From: Terriglobales bacterium
GTDB lineage: Bacteria; Acidobacteriota; Terriglobia; Terriglobales; Acidobacteriaceae
Reading direction: 5' to 3'
Assembly: GCA_035764005.1 (NCBI GenBank)
Contig: DASTZZ010000053.1
Span: 1-59,239 of the forward strand
DNA: 59,239 nucleotides
The notes under the pieces are model-generated. The model worked only from the letters and a program-made list of their open reading frames with translations. It was not told where the DNA came from and made no database searches. Positions 40,087-51,996 of this stretch are shown here, piece by piece; the stretch's first letter is position 1; each line of letters opens with the position of its first letter. Position numbers and translations under genes: made by a program.

Positions 40087-40458
40087 ATGAACTCGATGGG
40101 CAAGGCGCGATCTGGGTTCGTTGTCGTTATTCTTTTTATGTGGATGACTGCGCCTGCTCTGCGGTGTCTGCTCCCGGGTGAAGTCCTCAGCCCGAAGGAA
40201 CAGGCCTGCTGCAAAGCTATGGCTGGGCAATGCAGCGAGTCCACCGCGTTCGATCATCCCTGCTGCAAGAAAACGACGCAGACAGCACAGCCGGCGTTGG
40301 CCTCTGCAGAGACCACGGCAACCGCAATTTTTCCAATCGCAATTCCAAGTCCCATCCTGGTTAATTGGCACGCCGAGAATAAGGTTGCTGCTGAATGGCT
40401 CCTCGATCCTTCTCCGCCGCCATGCCGTGAACAGCCTAGTCCCGTTCTGAGAATCTGA
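40087..40458 (+). CDS. Secreted Cys-rich protein, possible metal binder
   Basis: This 123-residue protein has a signal peptide (basic start, then FVVVILFMWMTAPA) and a cysteine-rich mature part: C27, C41-C42, C49, C59-C60, in ALRCLLP, ACCKAMAGQC and HPCCKK. The pattern resembles small acidobacterial proteins that begin envelope metal-handling clusters, but I have no confirmed family name. It precedes the outer-membrane-like protein by 94 bases and the HMA protein by 1.05 kb, all on the same strand. A copper or mercury role is inference. Confidence 0.6.
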   Translation: MNSMGKARSGFVVVILFMWMTAPALRCLLPGEVLSPKEQACCKAMAGQCSESTAFDHPCCKKTTQTAQPALASAETTATAIFPIAIPSPILVNWHAENKVAAEWLLDPSPPPCREQPSPVLRI

Positions 40459-40552
40459 TTACTCCGTCCTGGCGCGCTCCTGCGCGTTCGCGTACTCGTG
40501 TTCCATCACCTGTCTCTTCATCACGCGCCTTTTCATCATAAGGACGGATTTG

Positions 40553-41485
40553 ATGCGAAATGCTTTTCCTATTCGAATCGCTCTTGGCCTGCTTACCTTG
40601 CTGTGTGCCTCGACAGCGGTCGCACAGGGAGCTGCGCCGGAGACTGCGCCTACGCTGTTTCCCGGCGGCGGGCTCATATCCTACAGCTCGGTGTTTCTTA
40701 TGCGGAGGGCGACAGGGACTTCGGGCAGCATTCCCGCCACTGCTCGTCCGACGCTATCGCACGAAGCCACATTCAATTTCACCTGGGGCTTCCATCCTGA
40801 CTTCGATGTGACAGTCCTCGTTCCGATCGTGACGCACAGATTCAAGAACGGAGGCGCATCGGCTGGTACCGAAACGGGACTCGGCGATGCGATGCTGCTG
40901 GTGAAATACCGCTTCTATCGCCGGGACTCGCCGCGGGGAACTACACAGGCGTCGTTCACAGTTGGGCCAAAACTGCCGACCGGTAGAACGGATTTCAGCG
41001 CGGCAACCGGAACGCGTTTGCCTGCCGGTCTGCAGGCAGGTTCCGGATCGACCGATCTCTTCGTCGCGGCAGACTGGACGTACACCGGCTTGTTCAATCT
41101 TCGACGGCTCGTGGCTGACGAAGATTTCCATTCACTCGTTCGTTCGGAAGGAACACAGACGACGCGTCTGGGCAGCGGGGTCGAATCGCGTTTTTGGCTT
41201 TCATATCGGCCGTACGAAGCCAAAGACGGGTCGCGCGAGTGGTTCATCGGACCGGTGCTCACCTGGCAACACTTCCAGGATGACCGGATCGCCGGAGTCA
41301 GGCAGGCAGGCAGCGGTGGCGATGTCCTGCTGAGCGGAATCACCACTTATTTCGGCGTGCATCCGGGAATGCATCTGTGGGTTGGCGTCGATTGGGACTT
41401 GGCTCGCTCGACGGGCCCGGCATTCATGCCTGTGAGCCATCACATCAGTTTCGGAATTACGCAGCAATTTCGAGTACATCGCTAG
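40553..41485 (+). CDS. Outer-membrane beta-barrel-like protein (transporter / MetA-type)
   Basis: This 310-residue protein has a signal peptide (ALGLLTLLCASTAVAQG) and a beta-strand-rich mature part with aromatic turns and a C-terminal strand (HISFGITQQFRVHR), typical of small outer-membrane channels of the phenol-degradation MetA type. It contains alternating patterns such as FNFTWGFHPDFDVTVLVPIV. I start at the ATG at 40553; a TTG immediately before it is possible. The gene ends 19 bases before the HMA selenoprotein, so co-transcription is likely. Confidence 0.75.
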   Translation: MRNAFPIRIALGLLTLLCASTAVAQGAAPETAPTLFPGGGLISYSSVFLMRRATGTSGSIPATARPTLSHEATFNFTWGFHPDFDVTVLVPIVTHRFKNGGASAGTETGLGDAMLLVKYRFYRRDSPRGTTQASFTVGPKLPTGRTDFSAATGTRLPAGLQAGSGSTDLFVAADWTYTGLFNLRRLVADEDFHSLVRSEGTQTTRLGSGVESRFWLSYRPYEAKDGSREWFIGPVLTWQHFQDDRIAGVRQAGSGGDVLLSGITTYFGVHPGMHLWVGVDWDLARSTGPAFMPVSHHISFGITQQFRVHR

Positions 41486-41504: not shown

Positions 41505-42035
41505 ATGAGTATGCATCGAATCGCGCTCGCTGTGGTTTTGCTTGGCGCGATGGTTGTGGTGCCTGTGGCGAAAGCGCAGGTGAAGCACATCGAAATGCGC
41601 GTTGAAGGCATGACGTGAAACTTTTGAGCATATGGGGTGAAGCAGCACCTCGGGCGCCAGTCTGGCGTTCAAAAAGTGGATGTGAACTTGTTGGATGGCA
41701 AAGTCGATGTCACTCCCAAGGAAGATGGACATATCGATCCCATTCAGCTCCTGAAAGCAACCTACGACAGCGGCGTTAGCACCGCCGAGCTGGATCTGAT
41801 AGCACGCGGGAAGATCGTGAAGGACTCATTAGGAAAACTGGCATTGCAGGTGGAGCCGAATCAGTCGTTCACGCTGGAGCCGAATGAGTTGGCGAAACAA
41901 TTGGAACCGCTCGTGGGCACCGCGACCGAGGTCACGGTTCGCGGACAGTTGTACAAGAAACCTGCAGGCAAAAAGAAGCCGGAGCTTCCAAAAGAGTTGA
42001 AGCTGCTGCTTCTCGAAGTGCAGAAAAAGGAATAG
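41505..42035 (+). CDS. HMA-domain protein with two in-frame TGA codons at the metal-binding CxxC (candidate double selenoprotein, UxxU)
   Basis: Read with TGA as selenocysteine, this is a 176-residue protein: signal peptide (about 1-24, ending VAKA), then a heavy-metal-associated domain whose motif is GMT-U38-N-F-U41-AYG instead of GMTCxxC. The TGA codons are 41616-41618 and 41625-41627. Before them is the HMA first strand (KHIEMRVEG); after them the HMA helix and strand (AYGVKQHLGRQSGVQKVDV, then DGKVDVTP). A beta-rich extension continues to residue 176. The start ATG at 41505 follows an aggaaaagg-type ribosome site. Two hairpins follow the TGAs. Alternatives are a nonsense pair at exactly both Cys positions, or an independent gene from GTG 41637; both seem less likely. 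UGA acts as stop elsewhere in the window. The final stop is TAG. Confidence 0.85.
41634..41651 (+). promoter_or_regulatory. SECIS-like hairpin A
   Basis: Bases 41634-41639 pair with 41646-41651 (six pairs, one G-U) around a six-base loop at 41640-41645 (aagcag). The loop begins 21 bases after the first TGA, within the 16-37 base range I recall for bacterial SECIS elements, but the preferred G in the first two loop bases is absent unless the closing pair opens. Confidence 0.5.
41652..41670 (+). promoter_or_regulatory. SECIS-like hairpin B
   Basis: Bases 41652-41659 pair with 41663-41670 (eight pairs, two G-U) around a GTC loop at 41660-41662. The loop starts with G and the cca-gtc-tgg top resembles the gca-ggtc-tgc top of the E. 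coli fdhF SECIS. It starts 32 bases after the second TGA. It directly abuts hairpin A. Confidence 0.6.
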
Positions 42036-42040
42036 AGAAA

Positions 42041-42559
42041 TTGAAATTCTGGATACTGATTGTCTGCCTGGCCGCATTCGTGGGATGCAATCATTCGGCG
42101 AGTTCGATGAAGCCGAAAGAAACTAAGATCAAGGCAGGCGAGGTTGGCTCTCGTCTGCCGGATTTTTCCGCAACCGATCTTCAAGGTCAAGAAATCTCGA
42201 CTGCCGATCTTCGAGGCAAGGTTGTGCTGATCGACATCTGGGCGACCTGGTGCGGGCCTTGCAAAAAAGAGATGCCGGGCTATGAAAAGCTCGCAGAGGA
42301 GTATGGTCCCAGGGGCTTTGCGGTGGTTGGATTCAAAGCCAACATGATGGCCGACACCGAGGATCCATTGAAGTTCGCGAAGAAGATCGGAGTTCATTAT
42401 CCATTAGTGATAGCGACCGATGATCTCCTTAACAAATTTGGCGGCCTCGAAGGTTTACCTACAACTTTTCTCTACGATCGTAGTGGGATTCTTCGCAAAA
42501 AGGTTATCGGCTTCGAATACACCAACGTCTTCGAATCGGAGCTGAAGGCGTTGCTTTGA
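42041..42559 (+). CDS. TlpA/ResA-like thioredoxin lipoprotein
   Basis: This 172-residue protein begins with a short hydrophobic leader ending in a lipobox-like AAFVGC (Cys16), followed by a TlpA-type thioredoxin fold with the active site WATWCGPC (C71, C74) and the cis-Pro segment GLPTTFLYD. It probably sits on the periplasmic side and reduces disulfides, or selenenylsulfides, in other envelope proteins. The start is TTG at 42041, only 5 bases after the HMA selenoprotein stop. Operon-mate position makes it a candidate reductant for the UxxU pair. Confidence 0.85.
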   Translation: MKFWILIVCLAAFVGCNHSASSMKPKETKIKAGEVGSRLPDFSATDLQGQEISTADLRGKVVLIDIWATWCGPCKKEMPGYEKLAEEYGPRGFAVVGFKANMMADTEDPLKFAKKIGVHYPLVIATDDLLNKFGGLEGLPTTFLYDRSGILRKKVIGFEYTNVFESELKALL

Positions 42560-42788: not shown

Positions 42789-45242
42789 ATGAGCTCTTTG
42801 GTCGTGCGGGCTTCGGTACCTCTCTGGCGTGAGGTTCGGTTTTGGCTCTCTTTCTCCGTAGTGCTTGCGCTCGGCGCTCCCGCGAGCGCACAACAGCAGC
42901 CGGCCCAATCTTTCGCGCAGCCGTCATTACAGGTTCCCGGCTTCGCGGGCAAAATCAATCGCGACGAACGGAAATCTACTCCGTCATGGCCCGAGGTGGT
43001 CCATCCGCCAAAGGGGGCTCCCAACGTCGTTCTGATTCTGGTCGATGATGTCGGCTTTAGCACCACATCGACTTTTGGCGGTCCCGTTCCAACACCAAGC
43101 TTCGATAAGCTCGCTGCACGCGGTTTGCGTTACAACACTTTCCATGTGAACTCGATATGTTCGGCGAGCCGTGCGGCACTGCTGTCAGGACGTAATGATC
43201 ATCAAATCGGTTTTGGAACCATCGCGGAGCATGGGCAGGGTTATCCCGGATACAACACTTGGTGGCCGGCAAATTCCGCATCGATCGCGAAAGTTCTCAC
43301 GGAGAACGGGTACAGTACGGGAGCTTGGGGAAAGTGGCATCTGACGCCGGTGTGGGAGATAAATCCCGCCGGCCCGTTTGATCATTGGCCGACAGGACTG
43401 GGCTTTGAGTATTTCTATGGATTTCTCGGAGCCTTTGCCAGCCAGTACACGCCGCTGCTGATGCGCAACACCACATCCATCGAGCCCGGACCTGAAGGCT
43501 ACGATCTCACAGAAGCCATGACCGACGACGCCATTCGCTGGCTGCATCGGCAGAATGCCGTCTTTCCTGACAAGCCGTTCTTCATCTACTTTGCGACGCC
43601 TGGAACCCACACTCCGCACCACGTGCCAAAAAAGTGGGTGGATATGTTCAAGGGTAAGTTCGATGAAGGCTGGGACAAACTGCGCGCGGAAAACTTCGAG
43701 CGCGAGAAGAAGATGGGAATCATCCCAGCAGATGCGAAGGACAATCCACGTCCGCAAGGGCTCGCAGCCTGGGATTCGCTCACTTCGGATGAAAAGCAAC
43801 TGCTCGCACGTCAAGCTGAAGTGTACGCGGGATTCACCGCTCAAACAGATGCCGCGATCGGGCGTTTACTCAATGCGGTCGACGAAGAAGGGAAGAGCGA
43901 CAACACGCTGGTCATCGAGATCTTTGGCGATAACGGCGGGAGCGCTGAGGATGGGCCGACTGGTTACGATGCGCGGCAGATTAGCGGAAAGTTAAAGAGC
44001 ATTCCGCAGCGCGTGCAGATCGAAGATGAACTGGGCAGCGAGATGTTCATGAATGCTTCGGCGGCGCCATGGGCATGGGCTTTGACTGCTCCATTTCGCG
44101 GAACGAAGACGGACGCCTCACACCTCGGCGGCACTCGCGATCCGATGGTGATCTCGTGGCCCGCGCGCATCAAGCGTGTTGGCGGGATACGCAGCCAGTT
44201 TGGACATCTCACTGACATCGCGCCGACGATCTACGAGGCTGCTGGAATCAGGCCGCCGGCTGCAATCGACGGTGTGAAACAAACGGCACTGGAAGGTGTG
44301 GCCCTCGACTACACCTGGGACCAGCCCGATGCGAAGAGTCGTCATCATGTGCAGATCTTCGAGACTAATGGGAACAGAGCGATCTATAAGAATGGATGGT
44401 GGGCCGGCGATCTGCTGCGCAATTCCTGGGACCGCATCGGCAGCCCGGGTTACGAGGCAGACAAGCTCCTCGCCGCGACCACGCATCCATGGGAGTTGTA
44501 CAACCTCAACAACGACTTCAGTCAGGCCGATAATGTCGCCAACCAAGATCCGCAGAAGCTCGCCGAGATGAAGTCACTCTTCGACGAGGAGGCGAGGCGC
44601 ACTCACGTTTATCCAATCCTGCCGCTGCGGCACCTGATCGATCGTCCGGAAGATACGCGCACGAAATTTGTATTTCGCAGTGGTGTTGATCGGCTTGGCG
44701 GCACGATGAACGTTCGCACTGGAGCCGGGACGGGATACACGATCACTGCGGAAATCGAAAATCCAAGTGGCGATGCCGAAGGAGTGCTGCTCGCTGACGG
44801 TGGACGTTACGGCGGTTTTACGTTATACGTGCAGAACGGGCGCGTGCATTTTGAAATTAACTCCTGGGGCAATCCCTCGGGCGAGTTGGTTTCGTCGAGC
44901 GCGCTTCCGCGCGGACACTCGACCATCGTTGTTGAAGTAACTCCGGCTGCAGCACAGCATCAGGACACGACTCCTGCGTCCGGCGCGTCGCCGTTCCCCG
45001 GCAGCGGAACGCTGAGCCTGAACGGCAAACAGGAGGCGTCGACAAACTTCGTGAATATCCCGGCAAATGGTGGATATTGGTCAGCATCGGAGTCGCTCGA
45101 TGTCGGCCGCGACCTCGGCTCCGCAGTGAGCGAACACTACAAAGTGCCGTATGACTTCACCGGGACTATCGGCACCATCACCATCGAAGTGCATCGACCG
45201 GCTCAGAACAACAGCCGCGCGCATAACGACGAACATTCCTAG
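42789..45242 (+). CDS. Secreted type I sulfatase (arylsulfatase-like) with C-terminal extension
   Basis: This 817-residue enzyme has a signal sequence (about 15-34), metal ligands D86-D87 in LILVDDVGF and the sulfatase signature CSASR at Cys124, followed by LLSGR. Cys124 is the residue converted to formylglycine; the family normally has C-x-P-x-R and Ala at that place is a known variant. The catalytic domain continues with GAWGKWHL and EIFGDNGG. Residues about 610-817 are an extra beta-rich domain likely to bind glycan. It should remove sulfate from a polysaccharide or aryl sulfate. The formylglycine-generating enzyme gene follows after 12 bases. Confidence 0.93.
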   Translation: MSSLVVRASVPLWREVRFWLSFSVVLALGAPASAQQQPAQSFAQPSLQVPGFAGKINRDERKSTPSWPEVVHPPKGAPNVVLILVDDVGFSTTSTFGGPVPTPSFDKLAARGLRYNTFHVNSICSASRAALLSGRNDHQIGFGTIAEHGQGYPGYNTWWPANSASIAKVLTENGYSTGAWGKWHLTPVWEINPAGPFDHWPTGLGFEYFYGFLGAFASQYTPLLMRNTTSIEPGPEGYDLTEAMTDDAIRWLHRQNAVFPDKPFFIYFATPGTHTPHHVPKKWVDMFKGKFDEGWDKLRAENFEREKKMGIIPADAKDNPRPQGLAAWDSLTSDEKQLLARQAEVYAGFTAQTDAAIGRLLNAVDEEGKSDNTLVIEIFGDNGGSAEDGPTGYDARQISGKLKSIPQRVQIEDELGSEMFMNASAAPWAWALTAPFRGTKTDASHLGGTRDPMVISWPARIKRVGGIRSQFGHLTDIAPTIYEAAGIRPPAAIDGVKQTALEGVALDYTWDQPDAKSRHHVQIFETNGNRAIYKNGWWAGDLLRNSWDRIGSPGYEADKLLAATTHPWELYNLNNDFSQADNVANQDPQKLAEMKSLFDEEARRTHVYPILPLRHLIDRPEDTRTKFVFRSGVDRLGGTMNVRTGAGTGYTITAEIENPSGDAEGVLLADGGRYGGFTLYVQNGRVHFEINSWGNPSGELVSSSALPRGHSTIVVEVTPAAAQHQDTTPASGASPFPGSGTLSLNGKQEASTNFVNIPANGGYWSASESLDVGRDLGSAVSEHYKVPYDFTGTIGTITIEVHRPAQNNSRAHNDEHS

Positions 45243-45254
45243 TTTGGATCTGAG

Positions 45255-46343
45255 ATGAAGTTGCGGTTTGCATTTGCTTGCCTGCTGATGACGGCGACTC
45301 TCGTCGCCGCTCAGCGCAGCCTATTTCTTCCGACGAAAGCGAACATGAGGAAGCCGCCCGGGCCCGCGCCGCAGGGAATGGTGTGGGTGCCAGGCGGAGA
45401 ATTTTCGATGGGACTCGACGATCCGCGCGCATTGCCGCATGGCGGGCGCGAGGCGATGGACGATGCGCGTCCCATACATCGCGTCTATGTCGATGGGTTT
45501 TGGATGGACAAGACCGATGTCACCAACGCCGAGTTCGCCCGCTTTGTCGCCGTGACACATTATGTGACAGTTGCCGAGCGCAAACCCACTGCAGCCGAGT
45601 TCCCCGACGCACCTCGCGAAAAACTTGTGCCTGGCGCGATCGTCTTTCGTCCGCCCGCGAAGGTCACATCACTCGATGATCCCTATCAATGGTGGAGCTA
45701 CGTTCCGGGCGCGAACTGGCGCCATCCTGTCGGTCCGGGCAGCAGTATTAAGGGAAGGGCGAACTATCCGGTCGTGCAGATCGCGTATGAGGATGCAGTC
45801 GCATACGCAAAGTGGGCAGGGAAGCGCCTGCCTACCGAAGCAGAGTGGGAGTTTGCGGCGCGAGGCGGACTCGCGGGCAAGCACTATGCGTGGGGCGACA
45901 GTTTAATGCCAGCGGGGCGGTGGATGGCCAACACTCATCAAGGTGAGTTTCCCAGCCACGATAGCGCCGAAGATGGATTCAGCGGGATCGCACCAGTCGG
46001 AAGTTTTCCCGCGAATGCATATGGCTTGTACGACATGTCAGGCAACGTGTGGCAGTGGATTTCGGACTGGTACCGTCCCGACTATTACGCGCGAATCGCC
46101 GGAACAGTAGCGCGAAACCCACGAGGCCCGTCATCATCGTTCGATCCCTCAGAGCGCGGCGTACAGAAACGCGTCCAGCGCGGCGGCTCGTTCCTCTGCA
46201 CTGAGCAGTACTGCACGCGGTACCTTGTCGGCTCGCGCGGCAAGGGCGAACCTTCGAGCGCAAGCAACCACATCGGTTTCCGCTGCGTGAAGTCGGTGAG
46301 CGTATCGCGCGTTCAGAGTGCCGCGATGCATGCTTCGCGCTGA
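45255..46343 (+). CDS. Secreted formylglycine-generating enzyme (FGE), catalytic cysteines present
   Basis: This 362-residue protein has a signal peptide (FAFACLLMTATLVAAQ) and an FGE/SUMF1 fold: VPGGEFSMG, DKTDVTNAEFARF, RLPTEAEWEFAARGG and GNVWQW. The end reads RGGSFLCTEQYC, so both catalytic cysteines (C315, C320) are at the positions equivalent to C336/C341 of human FGE, followed by SNHIGFRC. It should mature the sulfatase encoded 12 bases upstream. Its export suggests maturation in the periplasm. A short basic tail follows. Confidence 0.92.
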   Translation: MKLRFAFACLLMTATLVAAQRSLFLPTKANMRKPPGPAPQGMVWVPGGEFSMGLDDPRALPHGGREAMDDARPIHRVYVDGFWMDKTDVTNAEFARFVAVTHYVTVAERKPTAAEFPDAPREKLVPGAIVFRPPAKVTSLDDPYQWWSYVPGANWRHPVGPGSSIKGRANYPVVQIAYEDAVAYAKWAGKRLPTEAEWEFAARGGLAGKHYAWGDSLMPAGRWMANTHQGEFPSHDSAEDGFSGIAPVGSFPANAYGLYDMSGNVWQWISDWYRPDYYARIAGTVARNPRGPSSSFDPSERGVQKRVQRGGSFLCTEQYCTRYLVGSRGKGEPSSASNHIGFRCVKSVSVSRVQSAAMHASR

Positions 46344-49806: not shown

Positions 49807-51996
49807 ATGGTGAACTGCCGCGTTGCTGTTGGCTTCGGGTTGTACTTGTCGATTATTGGCATAACGTTACCGGCGCATGGGCAGGACCCGAACGTGCACG
49901 TGGTCGGCGCGTCGCTGATTGAAGGTCCCTCGAAACCAGAAGAGTTCCCGCGCTGGATCGCCGACATGCACCGCTGGCGGCACGAACAGCTGGTTCGCAT
50001 CGGCTACGACGGATCTGAATATGACCGTCCGGAGCTGAAGTGGACGCAGAGCAGCTTCATGCAGCCGCAGATGATGATCGAGGACCGATACTTCTACGAT
50101 CCGGTCGCAGGCAAGTACACCGTCAACCGCTACCTCGACGATCTGGAGAAACGCTACGGCGGCATCGACGCCGTGCTCATCTGGCCGACTTATCCGAACA
50201 TCGGCATTGATAGCCGCAATCAATTTGACATGTTTCGTGACATGCCGGGCGGGATCGCCGGCATCCGCCAGATGGTTGCGGATTTCCACGCCCGTAAAGT
50301 GCGGGTGCTGTTTCCAATCATGCTCTGGGATCAGGGAACGCGCGATGTCGGCAAGCCGGAAGCTGAAGGGCTTGCGGAAGAATTGGCGGCTGTCGGCGCC
50401 GATGGAGTGAACGGTGACACCATGAACGCTGTTCCGCGCTTGTTCCGTATCGCGTCGGACAAGACTGGACATCCTCTCGCATTCGAACCCGAACACCTCA
50501 CGCAAGACGAAGCGCTCGCCTACAACAACATGGACTGGGCGCAAGCGGTGCCCGCGAATCCCATTCAGCAGTCCGGTCCGATGCGGCAATATCTCGGCGT
50601 TGCCGGACCAGAATATGTCGACAAATACAAGTGGCTCGAGCATCGCCACATGACAAACATCTCCGATCGTTGGCAGCGCGACAAGAACGTTGATCTGCAA
50701 TACGCGTTCTTCAACGGCATCGGGATGGAGACATGGGAGAACATCTGGGGGATCTGGAACGGGCTCACATCGCGAGATGCTGAAACGATCCGACGGATCG
50801 CAAAGATCGAGCGCTACTTCGCGCCACTGCTCGTGAGCGAAGGCTGGGAGCCGCACGCGCCGATGCTTCGCTTCGAGGTCTATGCAAGCAAGTGGCCTGC
50901 GCAAGAGCGCACGCTATGGACGATCATCAACCGCAACGAATACGACGTCGACCGCGAACAGATATCACTGCCAAACACAACCGGGCTACGTTACTTTGAC
51001 GTCTGGCACGGAGTTGAGTTGAAGCCCGAGGTGCACGGCGACCACATCACGCTGAGCTTCCCGATAGAAGCGAAAGGATTCGGCGCGCTGCTGGCGACGA
51101 CAAGCTCGGATGCGGCCCTCGATGCATTCTTGCGCGAGATGAAGCAGCTTAACTCCGTCCGCCTCGACAGCTTCTCGAAGCAGTGGACGGTGTTGCCGCA
51201 GACAATGACCGCGATCCAGTCGACGAAACCGGCCTCGTCCGCCCCCGAAGGCATGGTCAAAATTCCCGCAACGGAATACCAATTTGACGTTGACGGCGTT
51301 GAGATCGAAGGAGGCAATCTCGCCGGCGTCGACTTTCAATATCCGTGGGAGAATGAGGCGCGCCGGCATCACCACCACATCATGCAGGTGGCAAGCTTCT
51401 TTATTGACAAGTACCCGGTCACCAACGACCAGTTTAAGAAATTCATTGATGCTACTCACTACCACCCGAAGGACGATCACAATTTCTTAAAGGACTGGAC
51501 GAATGGGAGCTATCCGGAGGGTTGGACTAATCGGCCAGTCACGTGGGTATCGCTGGAAGACGCGCGTGCCTATGCTGCCTGGGCCGGCAAGCGCCTGCCG
51601 CACGAGTGGGAGTGGCAGCTTGCAGCGCAAGGCACCGATGGGCGCACCTATCCTTGGGGCAACCAGTGGGACGCGAAAATGGTTCCGCCGGTCAACCGCT
51701 CGCGTGAAGCCAGCGGTCCTGCTGATGTAACCGCGCATCCGCAAGCTGCCAGCCCGTTTGGTGTGGAGGATCTAGTCGGTGATGTGTGGCAGTGGACCGA
51801 TGAGTATTCTGACGAGCACACACGCGCGGCTGTATTGCGCGGCGGCAGCTACTACCGCCCGACGGGATCGGTGTGGTATTTCCCACAAGCTTATGAGCTG
51901 CACCAGCACGGCAAATATTTGATGATGGCGCCGGGTCGCGATCGCGCGGCAACCATTGGCTTTCGCTGCGTTGTAGATGCGGCACCAGCAAAGTAG
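49807..51996 (+). CDS. Secreted glycosidase-like protein fused to a SUMF/FGE-fold domain lacking the catalytic cysteines
   Basis: This 729-residue protein has a signal peptide (about 1-25), then a TIM-barrel-like half (about 50-420) with repeated loops such as GIDAVLIWPTYPNIG, VRVLFPIMLWDQGT and ADGVNGDTMNAVP, which I cannot match to one GH family. A linker and an FGE/SUMF-type domain (about 480-725: PEGMVKIPA, DKYPVTNDQFKKFID, RLPHEWEWQLAA, GDVWQW) follow. The catalytic pair of FGE is replaced: RGGSYYRPTGSV has Arg and Val where true FGE has Cys. So this domain cannot be an FGE catalyst and may be a binding module. It follows the TonB receptor by 15 bases. Confidence 0.82.
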   Translation: MVNCRVAVGFGLYLSIIGITLPAHGQDPNVHVVGASLIEGPSKPEEFPRWIADMHRWRHEQLVRIGYDGSEYDRPELKWTQSSFMQPQMMIEDRYFYDPVAGKYTVNRYLDDLEKRYGGIDAVLIWPTYPNIGIDSRNQFDMFRDMPGGIAGIRQMVADFHARKVRVLFPIMLWDQGTRDVGKPEAEGLAEELAAVGADGVNGDTMNAVPRLFRIASDKTGHPLAFEPEHLTQDEALAYNNMDWAQAVPANPIQQSGPMRQYLGVAGPEYVDKYKWLEHRHMTNISDRWQRDKNVDLQYAFFNGIGMETWENIWGIWNGLTSRDAETIRRIAKIERYFAPLLVSEGWEPHAPMLRFEVYASKWPAQERTLWTIINRNEYDVDREQISLPNTTGLRYFDVWHGVELKPEVHGDHITLSFPIEAKGFGALLATTSSDAALDAFLREMKQLNSVRLDSFSKQWTVLPQTMTAIQSTKPASSAPEGMVKIPATEYQFDVDGVEIEGGNLAGVDFQYPWENEARRHHHHIMQVASFFIDKYPVTNDQFKKFIDATHYHPKDDHNFLKDWTNGSYPEGWTNRPVTWVSLEDARAYAAWAGKRLPHEWEWQLAAQGTDGRTYPWGNQWDAKMVPPVNRSREASGPADVTAHPQAASPFGVEDLVGDVWQWTDEYSDEHTRAAVLRGGSYYRPTGSVWYFPQAYELHQHGKYLMMAPGRDRAATIGFRCVVDAAPAK

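Follow-up and report, generated by a model that had tools for sequence, protein, structure and literature searches.

Does a reading frame that is interrupted by two in-frame TGA codons encode a protein with two selenocysteines (Sec), and how would two such neighboring codons be recoded on one message? This question is raised by a gene in the window, i.e., the whole stretch of 59,239 nucleotides analyzed here, which is contig C53 of a genome of 5.10 Mb (131 contigs, 97.5% complete). The frame runs on the forward strand from an ATG at position 41505 to a terminal TAG at 42033–42035, and the only in-frame stops in between are the TGAs at 41616–41618 (UGA1) and 41625–41627 (UGA2). The first-pass annotation had described the frame 41505–42035 as open through both TGAs, and its coordinates were confirmed exactly. 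Read with Sec at both codons, the gene product has 176 aa, residues 38 and 41 being Sec. By eye, the ATG is preceded by a purine-rich stretch, and the N-terminus resembles a signal peptide.

When cysteine was set at both TGAs, residues 31–85 (41595–41759, forward strand) matched the HMA domain PF00403 with 39 bits (E 1.1e-9; cut-off 24.8), placing the two Sec residues in the metal site GMT-Sec-NF-Sec-AYG. The segment 3' of the second TGA alone reached 18.1 bits, and a six-frame search in which TGA is a stop gave 22.4 bits, below the PF00403 cut-off. The HMA domain is followed by a C-terminal domain of approximately 87 aa (41772–42032, forward strand) to which profile and Pfam searches assigned no family. 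A profile of 32 members of this domain found six matches in the PDB, all with E of at least 0.11. Pfam detected DUF4431 in five of the 32 domains (best E 2.5e-5) and DUF5818 in five (best E 0.0014), and gave no match for the domain of the window itself; an OB-like fold would be a guess. The AlphaFold model of the single sequence had a mean pLDDT of 40, and the structure was therefore not used for a fold search. A plasmid search gave no match.

Homologues were found in 45 of 150 relatives with the protein as query. A profile of six rows matched in 199 of 399 genomes of the class and in 182 of 396 genomes of the phylum, many of these matches being weak and to unclassified HMA proteins. All 20 profile hits with E < 1e-60 have exactly two TGAs and no other stop, in line with the earlier remark that decay is an improbable origin of the two nonsense codons. 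The next hit (G137, E 5.7e-54) is without the motif because its match begins at residue 44, at a contig end. Altogether, 42 distinct UxxU sequences were collected from 41 genomes, 23 with the motif GMTUNFUAYG (hereafter UNFU) and 19 others, while relatives with the same layout carry UxxC (GMDUxxC, GITUxxC) or CxxC. These row sets were obtained by applying motif patterns to the fetched loci, which comprise the best-scoring matches and hand-picked ones rather than every match; the sets exclude short HMA proteins of the ordinary type, HMA domains within larger enzymes, and the majority of weak matches. Also dropped were an antisense chance match on the minus strand (L024) and G137, whose motif lies off the contig, and duplicates of a locus were combined. 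The codon shuffles of single rows cover 73 rows (42 UxxU, 14 UxxC, and 17 CxxC) and the tree 82 (42, 22, and 18, respectively).

In this tree, built with both motif positions masked, at least seven changes of state between UxxU, UxxC, and CxxC are required, vs a mean of 34.6 after shuffling; only 36 of its 79 inner branches have good support, and the tree includes several long rows. The homologues thus carry TGA or Cys at exactly the two positions that the first-pass annotation had singled out for alignment. Since both TGAs recur in 41 genomes, a sequencing error, which had been named as a possible refutation, is excluded. A reading in which UGA is a genuine stop, either in a decayed gene or in one for a short peptide, would account for the 37-residue product that the standard code gives for the frame from 41505, but it is at odds with the conservation of both TGAs, with homology on either side of them, with the Sec machinery, and with the constrained hairpins described below, and we regard it as extremely improbable. 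Likewise, the comparison of homologues makes it very unlikely that the two TGAs arose by chance or decay.

Exchange between Sec and Cys can also be seen within a single genome. In G795 (C87, 45000–48000), a UxxC gene (L097, GLAUPFCAHG) and a CxxC gene (L138, GLSCPFCAYG) lie approximately 1 kb apart and form a natural Sec/Cys pair of paralogues. Genome G140 carries no fewer than three Sec-HMA paralogues, of which two are UxxU and one is UxxC (L050, L051, and L028; C8, 50000–82500, and C24). A different kind of short HMA protein, in which an in-frame TGA takes the first motif position, was encountered in G552 (L133, C113, GMTUGACALA) and G663 (L136, C78, GMTUTGCEQE); both were folded and kept out of the tree, and L133 has a hairpin with the loop CGUGC 17 nt from its UGA. 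A scan of contigs of named organisms used Cys-based patterns, and was thus blind to TGA; its single hit, from Aliicoccus persicus with 38% identity, was disregarded.

The genome that harbors the gene contains the complete set of selA, selB, selC, and selD for which a search had been suggested. SelA scored 552 bits and SelB (635 aa) 381 bits, and the tRNA-Sec (selC) was detected with Rfam (65 bits) and with ARAGORN (anticodon tca). The selD gene (L060, C98, 13144–14070) has an in-frame TGA of its own near the N-terminus, seen by eye as AAG-Sec-ASK, so that a second, well-known gene family in this genome uses UGA for Sec; a Sec-containing SelD appears in Table 1 of PMC13188914. Among the relatives, selA was above the cut-off in 114 of 150 genomes, and selB in 35 of the 40 other UxxU genomes. 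The genomes in which selB was missed are G313, G391, G719, and G698 (79, 73, 65, and 72% complete, respectively), the last two having partial matches, and G562, which is 95% complete and carries a UxxU gene. No selA match was obtained in G005 (83% complete). The UxxU gene of G562 (L106, C32) has both hairpins, and its C-terminal part is, by eye, unlike that of the rest of the family. Reassignment of TGA throughout the genome was also considered and not adopted, as TGA terminates ordinary genes, e.g., the TlpA-like gene discussed below.

UxxU selenoproteins of the HMA type are known as such, in line with the suggestion in the first-pass annotation that Sec in HMA or MerP-like proteins may have been reported. 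They are catalogued as NF041115 (UxxU_metal_bind; PMC9312934), listed in Table 1 of PMC13188914 as a metal-binding protein or putative mercuric reductase with UxxU and two Sec. The protein of the window shares with this family an HMA-type domain with Sec in place of both metal-site cysteines, but it differs in its additional C-terminal domain and reaches 34.3 bits (cut-off 95) with the 74-position model, which exceeded its cut-off in none of the 396 genomes of the phylum sample. With NF045683 (MerT_CopZ_Se, a MerT/CopZ fusion-like heavy metal transport selenoprotein) it shares a CopZ-like domain in a selenoprotein, whereas the match is confined to the final portion of the 235-position model, a MerT-like part is missing, and the score is 32.3 bits vs 375. 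MerP (TIGR02052) and CopZ likewise have an HMA domain, but not the C-terminal domain. MerP is periplasmic, and the metal site of both MerP and CopZ consists of Cys. Some of the UxxU relatives lie near merR, a further likeness to MerP. The score of the window protein is below the cut-off for MerP (34.3 vs 92.55 bits) and for the best CopZ model (44.9 vs 85), and we favor the interpretation that it may be MerP-like in its action while not being classed as MerP. Other bacterial UxxU selenoproteins, the Prx-like and FmdB-family proteins (PMC2398784; PMC13188914, Table 1), have the same motif with two Sec but belong to different protein families, the comparison being one of motif and family. For one Acidobacteriota genome, three known and no new selenoprotein genes are given in PMC12013277.

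The earlier interpretation was largely upheld, including the double-Sec reading; what it lacked were the tandem hairpins, the C-terminal domain, and the conserved neighbors. Taken together, the gene very probably encodes a two-domain exported HMA protein with Sec at both metal-site cysteine positions, with a tandem hairpin in its mRNA. What is new relative to the catalogued UxxU proteins is this RNA arrangement, two hairpins behind two recoded UGAs. The family adds to the known selenoproteins a group sampled in 41 genomes, with an extra C-terminal domain and a frame that the standard code cuts early.

A bSECIS prediction had been suggested in the first-pass annotation, and SECIS-type hairpins were found behind the UGAs. 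Hairpin H1 (GGGGUG-AAGCAG-CACCUC; 41634–41651, forward strand) is directly followed by hairpin H2 (41652–41670, forward strand), with a core at 41654–41668 and the loop AGUCU at 41659–41663. With the first base of UGA1 as column 1, H1 occupies columns 19–36 in the UNFU rows and 19–35 in the 19 others, its register thus shifting by one base between clades, and the H2 core occupies columns 39–53. Both hairpins were present in the RNAfold prediction for the window, where a 42-nt piece folded with −20.1 kcal/mol (matched by 1 of 200 shuffles) and a 60-nt piece with −19.9 kcal/mol (matched by 6 of 200). In 40 distinct UxxU rows, 100% of the cells in the five H2 core pairs are paired, G-U being allowed, and a fully paired H2 with a SECIS-type loop was found in all 42 UxxU messages. 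When the UxxU structure was imposed on 17 CxxC homologues, 41% of the cells paired overall and 46% in H2. A script for the best stem keeps only non-overlapping stems, and it did not list H1 in most UNFU rows, nor H2 in L094 and L095, because a longer version of one hairpin overlaps the other by at least one base. A competing hairpin that overlaps both is the best stem in L057, a row with UGA1 only, and one displaces H1 in L099.

A bSECIS has been defined by a stem of 4–16 bp, a loop of 3–9 nt with G in one of the first two places, and an energy of at most −7.5 kcal/mol (PMC13188914, legend of Fig. 2), and most such elements lie 16–37 nt from the UGA according to that source. In the window, the stem, loop, and energy (−9.8 kcal/mol) of H2 fit this rule; its spacing from UGA2 (31–32 nt) is inside the range, and that from UGA1 (40–41 nt) outside. 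The bSECIS of the E. coli fdhF type is a single short stem-loop behind the UGA, with G in its small loop. This type is resembled by the GMDUxxC relatives, which have one hairpin, mostly 17 nt from the UGA, whereas the UxxU messages have two tandem hairpins behind two UGAs that are 9 nt apart. Among 16 GMDUxxC rows, the best single stem was 17 nt from the UGA in 11 and 18 nt in one; three favored another stem, and one had no stem under the threshold of the script. Searches of open-licence texts without their figures (including PMC13188914, PMC8318568, PMC2398784, and PMC8659212) yielded nothing relevant on tandem or two-codon bacterial SECIS elements or on Sec in HMA proteins, nor was any description found in open-licence papers of the recoding of two UGAs, three codons apart, by a bacterial ribosome.

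Because the hairpin region is coding, synonymous codons were shuffled as a control. In shuffles of single rows, H2 was significant (p < 0.05) in 41 of 42 UxxU and 2 of 17 CxxC rows, and H1 in 25 of 42 and none of 17, respectively; for the window sequence alone, the values are modest (p 0.018 for H1 and 0.024 for H2). Joint tests on divergent UxxU representatives gave 35 of 35 paired cells for H2 (seven rows, 24.1 expected) and 43 of 48 for H1 (eight rows, 34.4 expected), with none of 5000 shuffles as high in either case. Three UNFU rows on their own had 16 of 18 H1 cells paired vs 11.3, with 11 of 5000 shuffles as high. The 17 CxxC rows showed no excess for H1 in either register (51 of 102 cells vs 52.0 in register 54, and 38 of 102 vs 40.7 in register 55) and a weak, unexplained excess for H2 (39 of 85 vs 31.9; 57 of 5000). 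Synonymous differences in the H2 codons amounted to 0.11 in the UNFU and 0.17 in the other UxxU rows, vs 0.49 and 0.63, respectively, further downstream, and 0.31 and 0.58 on the upstream side of the UGAs, the upstream value of the UNFU clade thus being lowish as well; in the CxxC rows they were 0.51 in the H2 codons vs 0.65 downstream. The GMDUxxC rows have suppressed synonymous differences at their single hairpin instead (0.11 vs 0.67; nine rows). This hairpin, with the loop CGUGC, CGUGA, or similar, paired in 95 of 96 cells in a fixed-register test of 16 rows (0 of 5000), in which H2 showed no excess (25 of 80 cells vs 25.8 expected).

Three of the five H2 pairs are invariant, so the support for H2 at these pairs derives from the codon control rather than covariation. 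Of the 19 non-UNFU rows, 18 are distinct; 94.9% of the cells pair in this set, vs 34–49% when the partner is slid. For H1, seven cells are altered on both sides vs a shuffled mean of 1.7 (0 of 500), and the covariation score is 0.211 vs 0.123 (0 of 500). Double-sided changes affect three pairs, a count that 72 of 500 shuffles reached, and with all UxxU rows in a single H1 register this count was no better than in shuffles (321 of 500). In L115 and L117, the H1 stem is largely exchanged through compensatory changes. Run against 61 genomes, of which five carry a UNFU locus, a covariance model of the 19 non-UNFU sequences placed these five loci as the top five hits, followed by the UGA1-only locus of G109; at E up to 1, some match occurred in 41 of the 61 genomes, and the two weaker hits inspected (L180 and L181) had no UGA in place. 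Such a search responds to protein conservation as well as to RNA structure, and it was not counted as proof. The codon controls and pairing patterns indicate that the tandem hairpin behind the UGAs is constrained at the RNA level in the UxxU family.

These constraints on H1 bear on a reading in which it is a structure for ribosome stalling or translation control, or else chiefly a by-product of conservation in the protein. Single H1 p values in the UxLU group are often approximately 0.1, and the residues there favor pairing, as a by-product would have it, but the compensatory changes, including those in L115 and L117, and the joint test speak against it; H1 covariation and the joint test exclude the by-product more than they exclude stalling, and we consider this reading as a whole unlikely.

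The arrangement raises the question of whether one signal could recode two neighboring stops. We propose that both UGAs would be read as Sec, with H2 acting for both codons as the bSECIS that binds SelB. When folded, H1 would bring H2 within reach of a ribosome paused at UGA1, and it would be unwound once the ribosome arrives at UGA2. That one H2 decodes two Sec codons 9 nt apart, with a collapsible H1 correcting the distance, is put forward tentatively, and so is the role of H1 as a spacer hairpin, for which a few rows offer a possible but by no means assured indication. H2 itself probably serves UGA1, because four members with UGA1 alone keep it: in the GITUxxC/ALUGSC rows L052, L054, L057, and L130, 20 of 20 H2 cells pair (2 of 5000 shuffles). 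An H2-like stem is also present in L051, a UxxC member within the UxxU clade (7 of 8 cells, 25 of 5000), and H2 was not significant in the UxxC row L097 (p 0.17).

Spacing, on the other hand, would suit one SECIS per codon, with H1 recoding UGA1 and H2 recoding UGA2. Where the stem script lists H1, its loop lies mostly 20–22 nt past UGA1 and the H2 loop 31–32 nt past UGA2, both within 16–37 nt, whereas the cross distances of 11–13 and 40–41 nt fall outside this range. However, the loops differ in character. Those of H2 (AGUCU, AGGCU, UGGAU, UGGAA, and similar) always have G in the second place, while those of H1 are variable (AAGCAG, GAAAA, CAAAA, GUCAA, AGCC), and in several of them neither of the first two places is G. 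Together with the retention of H2 in the four members having UGA1 only, this renders a division of labor between the hairpins rather doubtful. The single-H2 proposal and its alternatives could be approached with reporter tests on natural variants, i.e., UxxU with H1 and H2, UGA1 only with H2, GMDUxxC with one hairpin, and CxxC without the structure.

What such a protein might do is suggested by its neighbors, all on the forward strand. The first gene of the cluster (40087–40458) encodes a small Cys-rich protein with a weak match to LpqS (16 bits, cut-off 35). It is followed by a gene directly upstream of the UxxU gene (40550–41485) for a protein that by eye is predicted to be of the outer-membrane type and that had no Pfam or NCBIfam match. 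Downstream lies a gene (42041–42559) for a TlpA/ResA-like thiol-disulfide oxidoreductase with WCGPC (PF00578, 80 bits vs 26). Conservation was assessed in 18 hand-chosen flank loci, 12 from the 22 other UNFU genomes and six others. The Cys-rich gene has a homologue in three of them, from one genus (L141, L142, and L145), and the outer-membrane-type gene in 16, not being found in L156 and L158. In G548, the homologue beside the UxxU gene matches PF13557 (Phenol_MetA_deg) with 35.7 bits vs a cut-off of 22. The TlpA-like gene has a homologue in 12 loci, downstream of the UxxU gene in 11, all UNFU, and upstream in G719; the UNFU contig of G001 ends before its position.

None of the four cluster proteins exceeded a metal-resistance cut-off in NCBIfam. 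The wider mer-type context, which covers five loci, includes a MerR-type regulator a few genes from the UxxU gene in G140 and G548 (111 and 136 bits with the MerR model); both are below its cut-off of 150.85 and so do not fix the metal. An 18-kb stretch of G140 with another UxxU gene has, several kb from that gene, a merA above the cut-off (555 bits) and a MerC-like gene above the cut-off of PF03203 (59 bits) that does not reach the NCBIfam MerC model; a MerR-type gene lies in this stretch as well. The vicinity of merR, merA, and merC in relatives suggests soft-metal binding, which we consider a somewhat better than even prospect for the UxxU protein. Exported, it would bind a soft metal, either Hg(II) or Cu(I)/Ag(I), via two selenolates and work in a MerP-like way, shuttling or sequestering metal in the periplasm, and the neighboring TlpA-like protein could keep it reduced. 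The gene family thereby points to possible diselenolate binding of soft metals outside the cytoplasm.

The same TlpA-like gene, nearby in 12 of the 18 loci, would also fit a thiol/selenol redox enzyme with the TlpA-like protein as its partner, rather than a metal carrier, and most uncharacterized selenoproteins are considered to have probable redox roles in the review PMC13188914. The recognized domain, however, is HMA, and some relatives are found near mer genes, which makes a redox enzyme an improbable reading. Further downstream of the cluster, the translations suggest by eye a sulfatase-like gene (42789–45242) and a gene with the look of a formylglycine-generating enzyme (45255–46343), and also a third gene with a similar C-terminus (49807–51996).
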